Both the position numbers and the translations under genes were made by a program. The notes below the pieces were generated by a model, which saw nothing but the letters and a program-made list of their open reading frames with translations, was not told the origin of the DNA and did no database searches. Below, piece after piece: positions 12,453 through 20,204 of a DNA stretch of 64,000 bases (its first letter is position 1; every line of letters begins with the position of its first letter). Source of the DNA: Oligoflexia bacterium (lineage in GTDB: Bacteria; Bdellovibrionota; UBA1018); NCBI GenBank assembly GCA_023701205.1, contig JAMPXJ010000001.1:186001-250000 (forward strand), written 5' to 3'.

Positions 12453-13019
12453 TTGCGCTCCAGTCGATTTTGGATGGTCCTGAAGGACGCCGGCAGAACA
12501 TTGGCCTGGACCGCGTTGGTCCTGCTTTTGAGCATTTTCAGCGCCGGCTTTTACGGGAAGCTCGCGCTGCGGGACGAACGCGGTGCCTTGGTTGCGGAAG
12601 TGGTCCGGGAGCAACGGGAGATCATGGTCTCCAGGGGCCTACTGACGCGACCCGAGACCGCCGCAGCCCAGAGGCTGAACACCGCGGGGCCTTCGCAGGA
12701 TATTCTCAGGGAGGGCCGCCTGAAATATTTCCGCGCGATGGGCTATCGCCGCGTCGGACGCCGCCAGGACTCCAGGGCTCTCTTCCTTCAGTCGATCGAC
12801 GAGCTGGGAAGCTTCATCAACTCGGCGCCCGGCGACTCTCGGATGGCGGAAGCGCTCTTTCTCGTGGGTGCCGCGTATTACTACCTTGCTGATGGTACCC
12901 ATTCTCGCGACCCTCAAGCCTCTCGCCTGCTTCATCTCTGCTCGGATTACTATGCCGGGAGCGTGTGGGCCCAGCAGGCCAACGCGCTTTGGAGCGCGGG
13001 ACGGCGGGGCGAGCTATGA
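12453..13019 (+). CDS. membrane-anchored TPR-like protein, operon with the histidine kinase
   Basis: A protein of 188 residues with one N-terminal transmembrane segment (LAWTALVLLLSIFSAGFYG), then a helical periplasmic domain that looks like paired TPR helices (LREGRLKYFRAMGYRRVGRRQDSRALFLQSIDELGSFIN and MAEALFLVGAAYYYLADG). The TTG at 12453 is preferred because GGGGGG lies 4 bases upstream; ATG 12393 is possible. It overlaps the histidine kinase start as ATGA, which suggests it works with that sensor, perhaps as a periplasmic accessory. Not a recognised family. Confidence 0.6.
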   Translation: MRSSRFWMVLKDAGRTLAWTALVLLLSIFSAGFYGKLALRDERGALVAEVVREQREIMVSRGLLTRPETAAAQRLNTAGPSQDILREGRLKYFRAMGYRRVGRRQDSRALFLQSIDELGSFINSAPGDSRMAEALFLVGAAYYYLADGTHSRDPQASRLLHLCSDYYAGSVWAQQANALWSAGRRGEL

Positions 13020-15031
13020 GCGGGGCGAGGAGCTTCGAGCGGCTATCGCTCAGGACGCGGCTGATCCTGGTTTTCGCGGGCTTGTTCTGCGTGGTGAGTC
13101 TCTTCTCGGGACTGCTGCTTTTTCTGCAGAACCGCATGGCCGTGAGCGGCGCGCAGGTTGCCATCATGGCCTACCGGCAGATGGCCGAAGCCCGTGAGAT
13201 GCAGTCGTCGCTCGAGGGGCTGGATTACCGGCTTCCGGCGCGACCGGACGAGAGCGAGTCTCCGGACCTGCGCAACTTCCGCGCCGCTGTGTCGAAAGCG
13301 CGCCAGAACGGCCGGACGGTCGAGGCCGAGGGGCTTCTCAGGAAGATCGAGACGGATTTCGAGAATTATCTCGCGGCGAATCCCTCGAAGCTACCGCTGG
13401 ATGTCCGGCGGAAGCTCAAGGAGGAGGTGGCCGCCGGCGTGGGCGCGTTCATGGAGCTCAATCAGAATCTCGTCTACCGCATGGCCGACGAGCTCATGAA
13501 GAAGCAGCAGCTATCGGTCGCGCTTGCGGGCTTCTTTTTCCTGGTGCTGATCGTCCTGATGCTTTGGGGTGGGTACCGCATCATGATCATGCTCACCGTG
13601 CCGCTCTCCTCGTTGGCGAGCTTCGTGGATCAGCTGGACCTGGAAGGCGAGCTCCCGGCGAAGCTGCCGGAATTCAAGCCTCAGGTGGCCGAGGTCTCCT
13701 TCGTCGCCAAGAGCTTCGAGCGCCTGCTGATGCGCCTCAAGGGCTACCGCGCCCTCAACGTGCGGCGGTTGCTCATCGAGAAGCGTCGAGCGGATATCAT
13801 CGCCGCCTCTATTTCAGACGGAATCCTGCTGCTTCGGGGCGAGGACGTGGTTTACGCCAATCCTGTCGGTGGCCGAATCCTGGGGATCTCCCCTTCGGTC
13901 GGGTCCGGCGGAGCCCTGGCAGGCATCTCCCTCGGAAATCTGATCGGCGGCGGAAGCAACCCGCGCGGCGTCAAGGCGGTGCTCGACGCGGTCTCGCGGA
14001 CGATGCCGGTCGATCTCTCGATCGACACGGGGGAGCGCAAGGCGTACTACCTGATCCAGGCCTACCCGATCTCCTTTGATCTCATCGAGCAGGTGGAGCA
14101 TTCGGTCAGCGTCTCGATCTCGCAGATGCTCGACTCCTTCCAGGCGAATACGGTCGTGGTCGCACAGGATGTGACGCTCGTGCGCGAGGGCCAGGAGGCC
14201 AAGGGGCATTTCCTCGCGACGCTCTCTCATGAGGTGAAGACGCCGGTCACGAGTCTCACCATGGCCACGCGCCTGCTGGCGAAGGCCTCCGAGCAGTTCC
14301 CGAACGCCACTCATCGCAATCTCATCAGGACCTGTGTCGAGGACGTCGATCGCCTGCGCGGACTGCTCGACGAGCTGCTGACCGTGTCGCGGTTCGATAC
14401 GCTGACCCAGAGGCTCGAGATCCAGAACGTGGATCTTGGCAAGCTGCTGAGACACACGGTGCAGACGTTCCAGCCTGCGGCGCATGAGCGGGGGCTAACG
14501 CTGGAGCTGGCGATCCAGAGTGGCAGCAAGCCGATCCTGCTCCCGATGGATCCGGCGAAGGTCGCGTGGGCGATCTCGAACCTGCTGCTCAATGCGCTCC
14601 GGCATACTCCGCGGAACGGGCGGATCCGGGCCTCGGCGATGGTCTTCGACGATCGGGTCGAAGTGCGGATCAGCGACACCGGACCGGGCATTGACCGTCG
14701 CCGGCAAAGCAGGATTTTTGATAAATTCTCCTCGTTTTATGATATTCGTGTCGCGCGCTCGGGAAGCGCCGGGGCCGGCCTTTCGATCGCGAGAGAGATC
14801 GTCGTGGCGCATGGCGGTCGCATCTGGGTGACGAGCGAGCAGGGTCTGGGCGCCGAGTTCTGTTTCACGCTCCCGCGGAAAGCAGGTGCGGAGGCCATCC
14901 GGCTGGGTGGCGCGGCGGCCGACACTATTGCGAAGAAGCCGGGGATTCAGGAAGTTTTGGAAGCCGCGGGTGAGAGTCACTCGTCGTTGCGGAAGGGAGG
15001 CAGTGGTGGCGCGTCTGCTTGTGGTGGATGA
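13016..15031 (+). CDS. membrane sensor histidine kinase, KinB-like
   Basis: A 671-residue kinase. Transmembrane helices lie at about 14-37 and 164-187, enclosing a helical periplasmic domain of about 125 residues. Then come a HAMP-like linker, a PAS domain (ADIIAASISDGILLLRGEDVVYANPVGGRILGI), an H-box (FLATLSHEVKTPVTS, His about 404) and an ATPase domain (N-box AISNLLLNALRHTP, DTGPGIDR, GAGLSIAREIV). The architecture and the 'isDGILL...YANPV' PAS start recall Pseudomonas KinB, whose partner AlgB is also an NtrC-type regulator. It overlaps both neighbours, so the three genes form one unit. Confidence 0.92.
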   Translation: MSGARSFERLSLRTRLILVFAGLFCVVSLFSGLLLFLQNRMAVSGAQVAIMAYRQMAEAREMQSSLEGLDYRLPARPDESESPDLRNFRAAVSKARQNGRTVEAEGLLRKIETDFENYLAANPSKLPLDVRRKLKEEVAAGVGAFMELNQNLVYRMADELMKKQQLSVALAGFFFLVLIVLMLWGGYRIMIMLTVPLSSLASFVDQLDLEGELPAKLPEFKPQVAEVSFVAKSFERLLMRLKGYRALNVRRLLIEKRRADIIAASISDGILLLRGEDVVYANPVGGRILGISPSVGSGGALAGISLGNLIGGGSNPRGVKAVLDAVSRTMPVDLSIDTGERKAYYLIQAYPISFDLIEQVEHSVSVSISQMLDSFQANTVVVAQDVTLVREGQEAKGHFLATLSHEVKTPVTSLTMATRLLAKASEQFPNATHRNLIRTCVEDVDRLRGLLDELLTVSRFDTLTQRLEIQNVDLGKLLRHTVQTFQPAAHERGLTLELAIQSGSKPILLPMDPAKVAWAISNLLLNALRHTPRNGRIRASAMVFDDRVEVRISDTGPGIDRRRQSRIFDKFSSFYDIRVARSGSAGAGLSIAREIVVAHGGRIWVTSEQGLGAEFCFTLPRKAGAEAIRLGGAAADTIAKKPGIQEVLEAAGESHSSLRKGGSGGASACGG

Positions 15032-16379
15032 CGAGAAGAGTATTTGCAGCACGATCGAGGCGGCGCTCAAGAGCGTCGGTCATCAGGTCGAGGTGGCGGA
15101 CAGCGGTGAGCTCGCGCTGGCCATGATGCGCAAGACGGTTCCCGATATACTCCTGACGGACCTTCGCATGGACGGGATGAGCGGCCTGGATCTGCTAGGC
15201 AAGGCGAGGGAATATTTTCCCTCGGTCACTCCCGTCATCATGACCGCCTACGGGACGATCGATACCGCGGTGGCCGCGATGAAAACCGGTGCCTATGATT
15301 ATCTCGTCAAGCCGTTCACGCCGGAGCAGCTCGAGCACCTCGTCGAGCGCATCGAGGAGTTCCGCCGGCTGCGCGAGGAGAACACCAAGCTTCGCGATCA
15401 GGTGGACGCGCTTTCGGAGCCGTCCTCGATTGTCACGAAGAATCCGCGGATGCAGAAGGTGCTCGATACGGCCAAGAAGGTCGCGGTGACGGATTCGACG
15501 ATCCTGATCACCGGCGAGAGCGGAACGGGGAAGACCCTGCTCGCGAAGCTCATGCATGACGGCAGCGTGCGCAGCAAGGGTCCGTTCGCGGTCGTCAACT
15601 GCGCGACCCTTTCGGAAAACCTGCTCGAAAGCGAGCTCTTCGGGCATGTCCGCGGCGCCTTCACGGGAGCGGTCAAGGACAAGATCGGACGCCTGCAGGT
15701 GGCCGACTCCGGCACTGTCTTCCTCGACGAGATCGGAGAGATCTCCCCGAGTCTCCAGACGAAGCTCCTTCGGTTCCTGCAGGAACGCGAGTTCGAGCGC
15801 GTGGGTGACACCAAGACGATCCGGGTCGACGTCCGCATCATCGCGGCCACGAACAAGGACCTCGAACGCGAGGTGCGCGAAGGGCGTTTCCGCGAAGATC
15901 TGTACTTCCGCTTGAACGTGATCGAGCTGCACATGCCATCGCTGCGCCAGCGCCCCGAGGATATTCTCACGCTCGCCGATCAGCTGCTGATGAGGTCGTT
16001 CGTCGCCACCGGAAGAAAGCCGCGTCCCCTGAACGAGGCGGCCCGGAAGGCGATTCAGAGCTATGGCTGGCCCGGGAACATCCGCGAGCTGAAGAACGCG
16101 CTCGAGCGCGCCGCGATCCTGTGCGCCGCGGATCAGGTGACGCTCGAGGACCTTCCGGATCGCGTGCTCGAGCATTCGGGACATGCGCCTCTTCCGGGAG
16201 GCGGCGGAACCGTGGCGCCGCTCGCGCTGACGGGCTCCGACGTGAGCCTCGAAGATCTCGAGAAGAAACATATCCAGCACGTCCTGGCCACGGCCACGAC
16301 GCTCGAGGAGGCCGCGAGCATCCTCGGTATCAATCTGAGCACGCTCTGGCGCAAGCGCCGGAGGTACGGCCTCGAGTGA
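15006..16379 (+). CDS. NtrC-family sigma54 response regulator, AlgB-like
   Basis: A 457-residue regulator: receiver domain (LLVVDDEKSI, phosphoacceptor Asp about 52 in LLTDLRMDGMSG, Lys in VKPF), AAA+ domain (Walker A GESGTGKT, GAFTGA loop about residue 217 for sigma54 contact, Walker B VFLDEIGE, PSLRQRPEDI), and a Fis-type HTH (LEEAASILGINLSTLWRKRRRYGLE). The HTH end is very like AlgB. GTG 15006 follows GGGAGG by 5 bases and lies inside the kinase gene. It should activate sigma54 promoters, or act sigma54-independently as AlgB can; targets are unknown. Confidence 0.94.
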   Translation: MARLLVVDDEKSICSTIEAALKSVGHQVEVADSGELALAMMRKTVPDILLTDLRMDGMSGLDLLGKAREYFPSVTPVIMTAYGTIDTAVAAMKTGAYDYLVKPFTPEQLEHLVERIEEFRRLREENTKLRDQVDALSEPSSIVTKNPRMQKVLDTAKKVAVTDSTILITGESGTGKTLLAKLMHDGSVRSKGPFAVVNCATLSENLLESELFGHVRGAFTGAVKDKIGRLQVADSGTVFLDEIGEISPSLQTKLLRFLQEREFERVGDTKTIRVDVRIIAATNKDLEREVREGRFREDLYFRLNVIELHMPSLRQRPEDILTLADQLLMRSFVATGRKPRPLNEAARKAIQSYGWPGNIRELKNALERAAILCAADQVTLEDLPDRVLEHSGHAPLPGGGGTVAPLALTGSDVSLEDLEKKHIQHVLATATTLEEAASILGINLSTLWRKRRRYGLE

Positions 16380-16460: not shown

Positions 16461-16594
16461 CGCATTGGGAAAATGCAATGTTTCAGGACTTCCTGGCCGG
16501 AAGCGCTGGCTCCGGCGCGTCTGCCGCTGGCACCCGCGTTGCACACGTTGGCGCGCCGGACGGTTGAACGACTTAAACAGGGGGACTCAGACTC

Positions 16595-17176
16595 ATGTCT
16601 TTTACCAAGATCTTCATGGCAATGATCGTAGTGGCCGCCTTCACCTCGGGAGTGGTGTTGGCGAACGAACGCAAGGACGGCGCCTCGGGCAAGCCCGGGG
16701 GCCCGGCGGCGGCGAGCTCGGTATCCTGGGAGGAATTCCGGGACCGGTGTCTGCGGCCGACGCAGTACGAGGTCCAGAAGGCGCCGGAAAACATCCGGAT
16801 CCAGTGCGTGGATACCAGCAGTGAGTTCGTGCCCGCCGCCGCCGGGGAGATTCCGCTGGCTGCCGGACGGATGGTCGTCACCACGGTCGTTGCCGACAAG
16901 TTTTACGTGGCCGCGGGCGCGCAGAACGTCGCCGTCGCCGCGAAAGGGGGTACCTGTCTGCGCTTCAAGGAGGTCGAAAAGACTCTCGCGATCGAGCGTC
17001 CGATGAGCTGCGCGGAGGTCGTGGGGATGAAGGGCGATCCGGCGGAGTATTGCCAGGCCAGCCTCGATGCCGCCAAGAGCGCCAATCCCAAGTTGATGCA
17101 GGTCCGGGATACCGGACGCACCGTGGATACCTGCGGGGGCGTGGCGGGGAATGCCGGAAAGGATGACCGGAAATAG
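16595..17176 (+). CDS. secreted Cys-containing protein of unknown function
   Basis: A 193-residue exported protein with a signal peptide ending near GVVLA-NE, then a Gly/Ala-rich linker and a compact domain with six cysteines (RCLRPT, IQCVDT, GTCLRF, MSCAEV, EYCQAS, DTCGGV), an even number consistent with disulfides in the periplasm. An AGGGGGA ribosome site precedes ATG 16595. Strong terminators flank it on both sides, so it is a single-gene unit. Unknown family. Confidence 0.72.
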   Translation: MSFTKIFMAMIVVAAFTSGVVLANERKDGASGKPGGPAAASSVSWEEFRDRCLRPTQYEVQKAPENIRIQCVDTSSEFVPAAAGEIPLAAGRMVVTTVVADKFYVAAGAQNVAVAAKGGTCLRFKEVEKTLAIERPMSCAEVVGMKGDPAEYCQASLDAAKSANPKLMQVRDTGRTVDTCGGVAGNAGKDDRK

Positions 17177-17205: not shown

Positions 17206-17248
17206 GGCGCCGAAAGGGGGCTGGGCCCGCTTTTCGGCGCCTTCTTTT
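17206..17248 (+). terminator. rho-independent terminator
   Basis: Perfect stem GGCGCCGAAA (17206-17215) with TTTCGGCGCC (17232-17241), followed by TTCTTTT. It closes the transcript of the Cys-containing secreted protein. Confidence 0.88.
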
Positions 17249-17269
17249 CGATCAGGCTTCGGAGGCTGC

Positions 17270-18367
17270 ATGAGCCGTTATGGCAAGGTGAGTGGGGTCG
17301 GGAGATGGGGAGTTCTCATCGGGATGCTCTTGGGCTCCTGGGGCCTGAGCGCCTGCGGAGAAGGCACGCGCGATCCGGCGGGGGCCCTCGAGCCGGCGTT
17401 TCAGAAGCCCCGGCGGGACGGTGCTTTCGTGCGCGCGACCGACGTCTACGGCCGGCTCCTGGTTCGTCCCGGAGAGGAGTCCGCCGAGTCGGCGCATCGG
17501 CCGTGGTCGGCGTGGTGGTATCCCGCGAAGGAGACTTTTCTTTTCGAGGGGAGCGAGGGAGCGCTCTCGCCTCTGGAAAAGTACGATGAGTATGTGCGCC
17601 GTACCCGCGGCAGCGAAAGCGAGGCCGCGCGTTTCGAGCGAGAGCGCCTGTATGATCCGAATGCCTCCGCCTGGGAGGGCCTCTGTAACGCCTGGGCCGA
17701 AGCCGCGGTCATGGAGCTTGAGCCCGCGCGCGAGGCCACTCTCGAGGGGATCCGGTTCGGCATCGGAGATCTCAAGGCGCTGCTCGTGAAAACCTACGAG
17801 TCGGTCAACGGTCTCCGTCAATACGGGCAACGCTTCAACGGGGATCGCGCAGGCGTTTACGACGACATCTTTCCCGAGCAGTTCCATCGGGTCCTGCAGG
17901 CGGAGCTCTTCGAGAAAGGGCATCCCATCATCATGGATCGCGACCCGGGCGTCGCCGTGTGGAATACGCCTATCTGGATGGCGCAGACCCGGATCGAGCG
18001 CGACCCCGCCAGCGCCACTCTGCTGCACGTGACGACGTGGGTGACCTGGGCCGCGCCCCGGCGCGAGCGGGGCGAGCATTCCGATGTCGGCACGCTGAGT
18101 CTCTCGCGCGAGTATACCTACGACCTCTACGGCTTCGAGCGCCCGGACGGCGCGTTCGAGATCAGTCATGGAGAGTGGACCGGAATCTCCCTGGACGATC
18201 ATCCGGACTTCCTCACAGTCCTGCCTCTCGGCGCGCCGGAGCAGCTCGAGGAAAGCCGGCGCACGCGCGCCAGCCGCAATGCCGGGATCGCCGCCGAGGT
18301 CGTCGATGAGATCCTGTCGCGTACCCGGGGCCGGCTGGAGCTCGTCGCGCTGCTTCTGGGAAGATGA
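17270..18367 (+). CDS. lipoprotein with transglutaminase-elicitor-like domain
   Basis: A 365-residue lipoprotein (lipobox LSAC, Cys about residue 29). The mature part has LSPLEKYDEYV, then WEGLCNAWAEAAVMELEP with a candidate catalytic Cys, then IRFGIGDLKALLVKTYESV, and later DRDPGVAVWNTPIW. This order is what I know from the TGase_elicitor family (Phytophthora GP42 transglutaminase and bacterial relatives), where the WEGLC..WA Cys is the nucleophile. It may cross-link or remodel protein or peptidoglycan at the envelope; activity is inference. The gene stands alone after a terminator. Confidence 0.7.
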   Translation: MSRYGKVSGVGRWGVLIGMLLGSWGLSACGEGTRDPAGALEPAFQKPRRDGAFVRATDVYGRLLVRPGEESAESAHRPWSAWWYPAKETFLFEGSEGALSPLEKYDEYVRRTRGSESEAARFERERLYDPNASAWEGLCNAWAEAAVMELEPAREATLEGIRFGIGDLKALLVKTYESVNGLRQYGQRFNGDRAGVYDDIFPEQFHRVLQAELFEKGHPIIMDRDPGVAVWNTPIWMAQTRIERDPASATLLHVTTWVTWAAPRRERGEHSDVGTLSLSREYTYDLYGFERPDGAFEISHGEWTGISLDDHPDFLTVLPLGAPEQLEESRRTRASRNAGIAAEVVDEILSRTRGRLELVALLLGR

Positions 18368-18495: not shown

Positions 18496-19056
18496 TCAGT
18501 TGACGAGTGAGCAGTCCTCCTTGTCTGCCGCGAGCACGATCGCCGTGATCGCGGAGAACAGCTTCTCCTCGGTCGCGCGGTCGCGGATCGTCGTGCAGAC
18601 CTCCGAGTGGCCGCGCACCTCGAAAAGCAGGCGCTTGCGGCCTTCCAGGAGGGCTTCGGCGGTGCCGTCCATCTTGCTGTAGGTTTCGACTGTGCGGCAG
18701 CGCGGCTCCTCGAGCGGGGCTTCAAGCATGGCGGCGTTGAGCGATTCGGTGAACTGGTTCCAGACGCCGAGCTCGATCGCGCCATAGGCGTCGCGGCCAC
18801 AGGCGTTGCGGGTGGTCAGGAAGTGCGCGACGTGATCAACGGTGGTCTTCGCGTAGTTGGCATTGATGATGACCGTGTCCCATCCGACCGCGTAGAGCGC
18901 GCCGTTGACGTCCGGCGAGCCGGAAGGAGGGGAGGTCGCGGGGTCACCCCCTGTCGCGGGGGGCGTGCCCTGCTCGGGGCCGCGCGGATCTCCGCAGCCG
19001 GAAGCGAGAATCGAGAGGATCGCGGCAGTCGGGATGAGTATCCGGAGACACGACAT
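18496..19056 (-). CDS. lipoprotein of unknown function
   Basis: A 186-residue lipoprotein with lipobox LASGC (Cys about 21) followed by a Gly/Pro-rich spacer (about residues 22-48). The globular part has four cysteines (NACGR, PRCRT, EVCTT, EDCSL) and no recognised motif. It was probably transcribed on its own, because a minus-strand terminator separates it from the upstream lipoprotein gene. Family not recognised. Confidence 0.7.
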   Translation of the reverse strand: MSCLRILIPTAAILSILASGCGDPRGPEQGTPPATGGDPATSPPSGSPDVNGALYAVGWDTVIINANYAKTTVDHVAHFLTTRNACGRDAYGAIELGVWNQFTESLNAAMLEAPLEEPRCRTVETYSKMDGTAEALLEGRKRLLFEVRGHSEVCTTIRDRATEEKLFSAITAIVLAADKEDCSLVN

Positions 19057-19086
19057 GAGGAAGGGTCGTGCAACCGAGGTGCCATG

Positions 19087-19152: not shown

Positions 19153-20037
19153 TCAGCGGAGCGGGTTCGCGTTGGGATTCGCGCGGCAGACCCCCTGCTG
19201 ACAGACCGGCGCGCCAAGCGATGAGAGGAAGCCCGACATCTCGCTGCAGTCGTCGCGGAGGATCCGATAAGAGCAGACCTCCTGTGCGTGAATCAACGCG
19301 TCGATCAGCGCCGTCTGCTGGGCTTTCACCGCTCGGGCGTTGCCTACCGCGAGCGGGCGGACCTTGCTGCAGTTATCGGTGATGACGTATTCCACGGCTT
19401 CGGTGGGAATCACGTCATAGTCATCGGTGATGTAGGCGCAGTCCATGTCGGTGGCACAGCCCTGCACCGAGGGATAGAGTCCCCGCACCAGATCGGTGGC
19501 TTCGGCGCAGGCATCCGGGAAAGGAAGCTCATAATACTTGCCCGCCAGCGCGTGGATTGCATGGTGCAAGCGCTCGCCGGACTCGCGGGTTGCGGTTTGA
19601 AAGCAGGTCCGGGTCGTTTCGGTGCGGAACAGCGTAAGCTCCTTGTCGCTGCGTTGCAGGATGACGCTATCGCTCGATTCCGGTTCCGCGTCGTTTTCCG
19701 TGAGATCGCTGCAGGATTCCGCAGCGGCAGGAGCCACGGAGACAAGAGTCGCCAGCTCGCGAAGCTCCTGCTCTGAGAGCTTCCCGGTTTTGAGCTGCCC
19801 TTGCGGGCCGGGGCCGATTTCGTAGCTGCCATCCGCCTTTACGGCAAATCCGTATTTCGCGACGCAGTTCTCCTCGGCTTCGGCGGCGCAGCTGGAACGC
19901 AGCGTAAGCGTCCAGGCCGGCTTGTCCTGCCGCAGCTCGGGCTGTTGCGAGGGCGCCTGTCCTCCCTTCGATTTCGAACAGCCGACGAGGGCTGCGCTCA
20001 AAGCGATCGTGATCGTGAATGCGGAAATGCGTTGCAT
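19153..20037 (-). CDS. Cys-rich lipoprotein of unknown function
   Basis: A 294-residue lipoprotein (lipobox ALVGC, Cys 20). The N-terminal half (about 40-140) has a beta-rich segment (WTLTLRSSCAAEAEENC, YGFAVKADGSYEIGPGPQG) and an LSEQELRELATLVS helix. The C-terminal half carries a Cys-rich part (GCATDMDCAYI, VICDNC-like spacing, CSYRILRDDCSEM, PVCQQGVCRANPN), whose end recalls 'C-x-x-GxC' tails of small secreted bacterial proteins. AGGAGG stands 5 bases before ATG 20037. Not a named family to my knowledge. Confidence 0.75.
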   Translation of the reverse strand: MQRISAFTITIALSAALVGCSKSKGGQAPSQQPELRQDKPAWTLTLRSSCAAEAEENCVAKYGFAVKADGSYEIGPGPQGQLKTGKLSEQELRELATLVSVAPAAAESCSDLTENDAEPESSDSVILQRSDKELTLFRTETTRTCFQTATRESGERLHHAIHALAGKYYELPFPDACAEATDLVRGLYPSVQGCATDMDCAYITDDYDVIPTEAVEYVITDNCSKVRPLAVGNARAVKAQQTALIDALIHAQEVCSYRILRDDCSEMSGFLSSLGAPVCQQGVCRANPNANPLR

Positions 20038-20204
20038 GGTATCCTCCTGTGAATGGCTATGAGTGGCTATGTGTAGCTGTTGAACGGCTAGGTCGCAGCA
20101 ATCGCCGCCCGGCGTGGCGGAGACTGCCGCGACGTGTGCAATCCATGTGCCGTGCGCTATTGTCCGGTGCGCCGAAGAGCGTTATTCTCGGGCAGGGAGT
20201 CACG

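Follow-up and report, generated by a model that had tools for sequence, protein, structure and literature searches.

A lipoprotein of the PF16683 family with a predicted GP42 transglutaminase fold, its conserved sigma54-type promoter sequences and its candidate substrates in an Oligoflexia bacterium

Genes and conserved features at the locus

The window, by which we mean the whole 64,000-nucleotide stretch of Oligoflexia DNA that was analysed, carries on its forward strand a gene for a sensor histidine kinase (12965-15031; HisKA and HATPase_c domains) and, after it, one for an NtrC-type response regulator (15006-16379), recognized by matches to receiver, Sigma54_activat and Fis HTH domains. 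The mechanical reading frame of the regulator opens at 14886, and the start at 15006 is an estimate. Next in order are a sigma54-type site, a gene for a secreted protein of 193 residues with a signal sequence and six conserved cysteines (16595-17176, forward strand), which we call the partner, and a gene for a lipoprotein of the PF16683 (GP42-type, transglutaminase-like) family (17270-18367, forward strand). The site, TGGCACCCGCGTTGCA (16528-16543, forward strand), begins 67 bp ahead of the partner ATG and has no mismatch to the sigma54 consensus.

The lipoprotein gene runs exactly as in the original prediction, from an ATG and encoding 365 residues, with a GGAGG, spotted by eye, immediately 5' of the start codon. 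Its signal sequence ends in a lipobox, L-S-A-C29 (Cys29 codon at 17354-17356), and C29 is invariant in all 13 rows of an alignment of the window protein with 12 orthologues (alignment A1). Signal sequence, lipobox and conserved cysteine thus agree with the earlier description of a bacterial lipoprotein, for which we infer an outer-membrane location. Some relatives (e.g. L053, L054 and L057), among 23 related named loci, had no lipobox in a scripted test.

These loci were compared together with 35 genomes of the same taxonomic family (G numbers), 58 of the class (own genome included) and 368 of the phylum; the genomes are related and mostly drafts, and counts across them are not independent. 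Eighteen of the 23 named loci come from MAGs labelled Oligoflexia, Bdellovibrionales, Bacteriovorax or similar. Relatives also come from bins named as Methanosarcinales archaeon (L068) and Streptomyces griseus (L058), and these MAGs are likely mislabelled or contaminated.

A recognizable partner homologue is the immediate upstream neighbour of the lipoprotein gene in 16 of the 23 named loci, and in 11 of the 23 the partner is itself preceded by a homologue of the NtrC-type regulator. The partner matched no Pfam or PHROGs family. Across 17 rows (alignment A3), its six cysteines are conserved, Gln61 is near-invariant and Lys102 is invariant. Its structure model was of moderate confidence (pLDDT 74.9) and gave no convincing match in the PDB (best Foldseek E 0.10; best Z 2.9), which speaks neither for nor against an inhibitor fold.

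Between the partner and lipoprotein genes, an inverted repeat (I8) could form a hairpin followed by a T-rich stretch (17206-17249, forward strand). This is possibly a partial terminator, and a hint only: the window held one such site against 2.0 in shuffled sequences, and a stricter script found none in the window. A hairpin with a T-rich tail also separates the two genes at L048, L050, L051 and L052. At L061, L062 and L066 the gap is 4-7 nt (starts as chosen), which favours co-transcription of partner and enzyme.

Two further lipoproteins with no named family are encoded downstream on the reverse strand (18496-19056 and 19153-20037). Upstream of the former is TGGCACCTCGGTTGCA (19069-19084, reverse strand), again with no mismatch to the consensus. 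Only 12 bp separate this site from the ATG, so that the message would start almost at the ATG; the gene possibly belongs to the same sigma54 regulon as the PF16683 gene. The latter gene has a sigma54-like site with one mismatch (20137-20152, reverse strand).

Family, predicted fold and active site of the lipoprotein

The lipoprotein is a firm member of PF16683 (TGase_elicitor), its sole Pfam family, scoring 65.8 bits where the cut-off is 25 (E 3.9e-18) over residues 133-324 and profile positions 116-337 of 361. The proposed likeness to the oomycete transglutaminase elicitor was therefore borne out in the profile search; neither NCBIfam nor PHROGs assigned a family to the protein at E ≤1. All three motifs singled out beforehand are present, namely EKYD (residues 103-106; 17576-17587), WEGLCNAWA (residues 135-143; 17672-17698) and VWNTP (residues 230-234; 17957-17971), but the original prediction had listed them out of order, since EKYD precedes WEGLCNAWA. 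Among PDB sequences, 3TW5 alone matched at E ≤10 (1.6e-10 in a single-sequence search), and a profile built from 24 rows, the window protein and 23 relatives (alignment A2), matched the same entry with E 1.5e-27 across profile positions 78-340.

An AlphaFold2 model with A2 as input (mean pLDDT 86.8, pTM 0.81) shows a confidently predicted GP42 fold in the kind of structure comparison that the original prediction had proposed as a check. In Foldseek, 3TW5 alone fell below E 0.001 (1.7e-14), and VIA-align superposed the model on it with Z 24.8 and rmsd 2.8 over 277 residues at 22% identity. The nine entries after 3TW5, at Z 7.0-7.8, were papain-like proteases from different families. They include IdeS/Mac-1 and TDE0362, which share a papain-like core but match weakly, over 156-197 residues, and did not appear in the sequence search at E ≤10. 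In the model, Cys139 (codon at 17684-17686) is the first residue of the core helix (139-148). In the sequence alignment, V230-W231-N232-T233-P234 lines up with the VWNQP stretch of 3TW5, the Pep-13 segment (Pep-13 sequence from an excerpt of PMC9879208).

The likeness to GP42 of Phytophthora sojae (PF16683, 3TW5), the source of Pep-13, thus takes in the predicted fold, the position of the catalytic cysteine, the VWN.P segment and a PW...EKY N-terminal region. In contrast to GP42, the window protein is a lipoprotein, lacks counterparts to some inserted stretches of 3TW5 and is encoded with a six-cysteine partner behind a sigma54 site. A further difference lies next to the catalytic cysteine, where GP42 has a histidine (the CH motif; excerpt of PMC10318531). 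In the alignment, W-F-G-I-S-H-A-W of 3TW5 faces W135-E-G-L-C139-N140-A-W142 of the lipoprotein. The serine of this stretch in 3TW5 is presumably the mutated catalytic cysteine.

The GP42 histidine therefore corresponds to Asn140, and the Cys-His-Asp triad anticipated in the original prediction is not supported in that form. Among the 15 members of the window clade, the residue after the cysteine is Asn in eight, Asp in six, Gly in one and His in none. With Asn or Asp here, catalytic activity is uncertain. The cysteine itself is kept in 14 of the 15 members, which were gathered without any Cys motif in the search. In A2, His206, Asp223 and Trp231 are invariant (24 of 24 rows); the invariance of Cys139, Ala141 and Trp142 there is partly a product of selection, because the motif of the gathering scan contained Cys followed by Asn or Asp. 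Over 45 aligned rows of the whole family, one of them a fragment, Cys and Asp223 are each present in 43, Trp231 and Asn232 in 41, His311 in 35 and His206 in 34.

The residue after the cysteine follows subfamily. The long GP42-like group mostly has His (Asp in L001, a paralogue in the own genome), and the lipobox test found none in this group; the GHCN group has Asn, and lipoboxes are present. A 44-row tree recovers both the window clade (99/93) and the GHCN group (100/99) as monophyletic. Among the matches in the 58 class genomes, those of the window clade stand well apart, at E ≤1.5e-79, and no other match is stronger than 3.6e-42. The own genome has four PF16683 matches. The other groups in these bacteria (WMG(I/L)CHGW and WWGHCNGW motifs) belong to the same family, but they lie outside the window clade and possess neither a promoter-position sigma54 site nor a partner-gene copy of their own. 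The second subfamily, with His before Cys (GHCNGW), was seen at L003, L031, L032, L033 and L041-L045, most of them with a lipobox.

One clade member, L025 (G030:C2:23478-24485), has Leu in place of the catalytic cysteine, a natural loss worth study.

Sigma54-type sites and Gln-Lys repeat proteins

The window has three sites with at most one mismatch to the sigma54 consensus, a number that is not unusual in shuffled sequences (average 1.22; 12 of 100 shuffles reach three), so what argues for these promoters is their conservation, together with the perfect sites. Every one of the 14 readable orthologous loci has a site with no more than one mismatch upstream (11 perfect, three with one mismatch). 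For the fifteenth orthologue, L021, the contig stops before the upstream DNA; a perfect site does stand ahead of its partner gene, which lies on a different contig. Eleven named loci duplicate promoters of the genome set and were counted once: L046, L047, L048, L049, L050 and L051 correspond to G001, G006, G020, G003, G022 and G007, and L052, L056, L061, L062 and L066 to G021, G004, G019, G029 and G033. Outside the 15 genomes, the enzyme-partner pairs at L053, L055, L057 and L059 have no site with zero or one mismatch upstream. Among the paralogues, 13 long GP42-like and nine GHCN loci showed no sigma54 site in promoter position within 1-1.5 kb upstream; L003, a GHCN paralogue, has a one-mismatch site more than 700 bp upstream of its open frame. 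With a conserved -24/-12 sequence and sigma54 (RpoN) encoded in the own genome, the partner-lipoprotein pair reads, at the level of sequence, as a putative sigma54 operon. The DNA upstream of the sigma54 sites was searched for a common activator-binding motif, and none emerged.

Fifteen of the 35 family genomes carry a member of the window clade (here, the enzyme-positive genomes). The partner gene occurs in 14 of the 35, all of them enzyme-positive, and no second copy was found in any genome of the family. The sole enzyme-positive genome with no partner gene found is G030, whose enzyme has also lost its cysteine; a perfect sigma54 site nevertheless stands directly upstream of L025. In G018 the partner and enzyme genes are on separate contigs, with the enzyme gene at a contig end.

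Perfect sites were more frequent than expected from a reversed control in these genomes. The own genome has five perfect TGGCACNNNNNTTGCA sites (control, two). Two belong to the window locus; of the remaining three, two stand ahead of genes for Gly-Gln-Lys repeat proteins and the third ahead of a gene for a secreted protein of 74 residues. Over all 35 genomes there were 83 perfect sites (control, 30), with 51 versus nine in the 15 enzyme-positive genomes and 32 versus 21 in the other 20. These 83 comprise 57 that were read downstream by eye, 15 seen separately and 11 unread, all in enzyme-negative genomes; the reading frames behind sites were chosen with a script favouring ATG starts and hydrophobic N-termini. 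The 57 sites preceded 14 repeat proteins, 12 secreted proteins of 70-89 residues, five relatives of the 18496-19056 lipoprotein, one partner and 25 other or no genes. Sixteen of the 57 are in enzyme-negative genomes outside one exceptional genus (G026, G031 and G034), and they preceded no repeat protein and three small secreted proteins.

The secreted proteins of 70-89 residues, grouped by eye, have a single cysteine and stand behind perfect sites in 12 genomes (L176, at G000:C44, and L150, L153, L157, L166, L175, L177, L180, L185, L187, L194 and L197); three of these genomes (G005, G014 and G017) have no enzyme. Proteins resembling the 18496-19056 lipoprotein, again by eye, are found behind perfect sites in G007, G021, G022, G030 and G031.

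The two repeat proteins of the own genome are encoded outside the window. L080 (G000:C40:46349) is a secreted protein of 162 residues, mostly (GQKA)n, with 33 Gln and 28 Lys, and L079 (G000:C12:43925) is a secreted Gly-Gln-Lys repeat protein of 144 residues with 17 Gln and 26 Lys; each is behind a perfect sigma54 site. A search with the repeat alone (GQKAGQK codons) found 21 loci in 13 of the 35 genomes, with one hit overall in the reversed control. Four of the loci are cut by contig ends ahead of the start codon, and among the 17 that can be read, 15 show a sigma54-type site with zero or one mismatch, at 57-99 bp from the chosen ATG in 14 and at 207 bp in G016. The two readable loci with no such site are G030:C44, the one readable repeat gene of G030, and G021:C34. 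In the repeat unit Gln is kept beside Lys while the flanking letters vary (GQK, EQK, PGQK, AQK). The strict pattern GQKAGQKAGQK occurs in 11 of the 368 phylum genomes, all within the own taxonomic family, and a search with one repeat pattern found no Gln-Lys repeat reading frame in the window or at the 23 named loci.

Repeat genes and the enzyme co-occur. In the 35 genomes, 14 of 15 enzyme-positive genomes have repeat genes against three of 20 enzyme-negative ones (Fisher p 4e-6), and by genus the counts are 11 of 11 and one of 15. The count of 14 allows other letters (EQK, PGQK) and includes the G007 gene, which came to light behind a sigma54 site; leaving G007 aside gives 13 of 15. G019 has the enzyme, and no repeat gene was found there, whereas G030 has repeat genes and a Cys-less clade protein. 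The three enzyme-negative genomes with repeat genes behind sigma54-type sites (G026, G031 and G034) belong to one genus, and G031 and G034 hold a GHCN-type paralogue. The G029 repeat gene is cut before its start and showed no signal sequence for that reason, and G020:C47 and G020:C73 may be halves of one gene.

Several hits to GQK-like patterns were left out of the count of secreted repeat proteins. At G019:C23 the match is interrupted by an in-frame stop, the frame at G001:C70:2334 has no ATG-led secreted start, G026:C4, G031:C166 and G020:C38 resemble other proteins, and G020:C9:26819 has no reading frame that passed the scripted test.

A possible cross-linking system and its alternatives

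A lipid-anchored member of a transglutaminase family and secreted proteins with Gln next to Lys, encoded behind a common promoter type, are most simply read as enzyme and substrate. We consider it an even call that the lipoprotein is an outer-membrane transglutaminase of the GP42 type that cross-links co-regulated Gln/Lys-repeat proteins into a protease-resistant layer. The adjacent histidine kinase would sense a signal and activate the NtrC-type regulator, and RNA polymerase with sigma54 would then make enzyme, partner and repeat proteins together. Control of the repeat genes by the adjacent regulator is suggested by its position, and it is an inference because the sigma54-activator domain is matched 22 times in the own genome, in some cases by pieces of a single gene. 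Cys139 would attack a protein glutamine and pass the acyl group to lysine, giving epsilon-(gamma-glutamyl)lysine cross-links; transglutaminases are described as joining Gln to Lys in protease-resistant bonds (excerpt of PMC4915311). The candidate substrates are the secreted (G/E/P/A)QK-repeat proteins behind the same type of sigma54 promoter, which the lipid-anchored enzyme would weld into a protease-resistant layer at the envelope. With its near-invariant Gln and invariant Lys, the six-cysteine partner is perhaps a substrate too, or else a nucleator or regulator.

Co-regulation is, however, no proof of an enzyme and its substrate. A fuller and more tentative version, which we hold to be somewhat less than an even bet, is a protein cement made under its own two-component sigma54 circuit, in which the enzyme is active without the GP42 histidine (for example with Cys139, Asp223 and Asn232 in the active site) and cross-links secreted (GQK)n proteins, together with the six-cysteine partner, into an isopeptide-bonded coat.

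The missing GP42 histidine and the papain-like proteases that follow 3TW5 in the structure comparison also suit a papain-like protease, amidase or deamidase, which would trim or deamidate the repeat proteins or the partner. The partner might instead be its inhibitor, as in staphopain-staphostatin pairs, where a cysteine protease is made with a partner inhibitor; the adjacent and co-occurring genes of partner and enzyme would suit this. We regard this rival as unlikely. The match to the transglutaminase is far higher (Z 24.8 against at most 7.8), and a transglutaminase needs the Gln beside Lys found in the co-regulated repeats, while a protease does not. The possible terminator between the two genes argues weakly against the protease with its inhibitor, as it would favour more partner than enzyme. 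Slightly less probable is that the clade is catalytically dead, an envelope lipoprotein scaffold that binds Gln-Lys repeats or the partner. All 15 clade members lack His after Cys, and the G030 member has kept its perfect upstream site despite losing the cysteine, as a scaffold might; but retention of Cys139 in the 14 other members, and of His206, Asp223 and Trp231 in every row of A2, counts against this, and the Cys-less member is also the one without a partner gene.

The perfect sites also precede lipoproteins and the secreted proteins of 70-89 residues, and repeat genes occur in three genomes that lack the enzyme. Both facts would fit a general sigma54 envelope or stress regulon in which co-regulation is incidental, the repeat proteins being a polycationic coat (e.g. 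one binding LPS or DNA) and the enzyme having its target elsewhere, perhaps in host or prey. We think this improbable, given the strong association of repeats and enzyme by genome and by genus and the retention of Gln beside Lys among varying neighbours. The original prediction had allowed for action on host or prey as well as on envelope proteins, but nothing pointing to such a target was seen at the locus. Cross-linking of the cell's own envelope or secreted proteins fits better, since the sigma54 promoter sequences are shared with secreted Gln-Lys repeat proteins.

Bacterial transglutaminase systems include Tgl of Bacillus subtilis with its spore-coat protein GerQ and MTG of Streptomyces. 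Like these, the window system would cross-link proteins into a resistant structure. To our knowledge, Tgl and MTG belong to enzyme families unrelated to PF16683, and we know of no dedicated Gln-Lys repeat polymer or sigma54 control in either system. The window gene encodes a variant within a known enzyme family and sits in a putative, apparently undescribed cross-linking system with candidate substrates; a literature search on GP42 and PF16683, bacterial transglutaminases, sigma54 and Gln-Lys repeats gave no title on such a system among the matches listed. If the cross-linking reading is true, it would provide natural candidate substrates for the bacterial branch of the PF16683 family, a GP42-like active site that works without its histidine, and a Gram-negative route to a covalently cross-linked protein layer. 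The enzyme and a repeat protein could then serve as a protein glue.

The family itself is widespread in these bacteria. PF16683 matches occur in 47 of the 58 genomes of this Bdellovibrionota-type class, in contrast to a 2016 review that confines GP42 relatives to oomycetes and some Vibrio (PMC4915311). The family is expanded in genus g30, to which G048 and G049 belong, with up to 17 matches in one genome.
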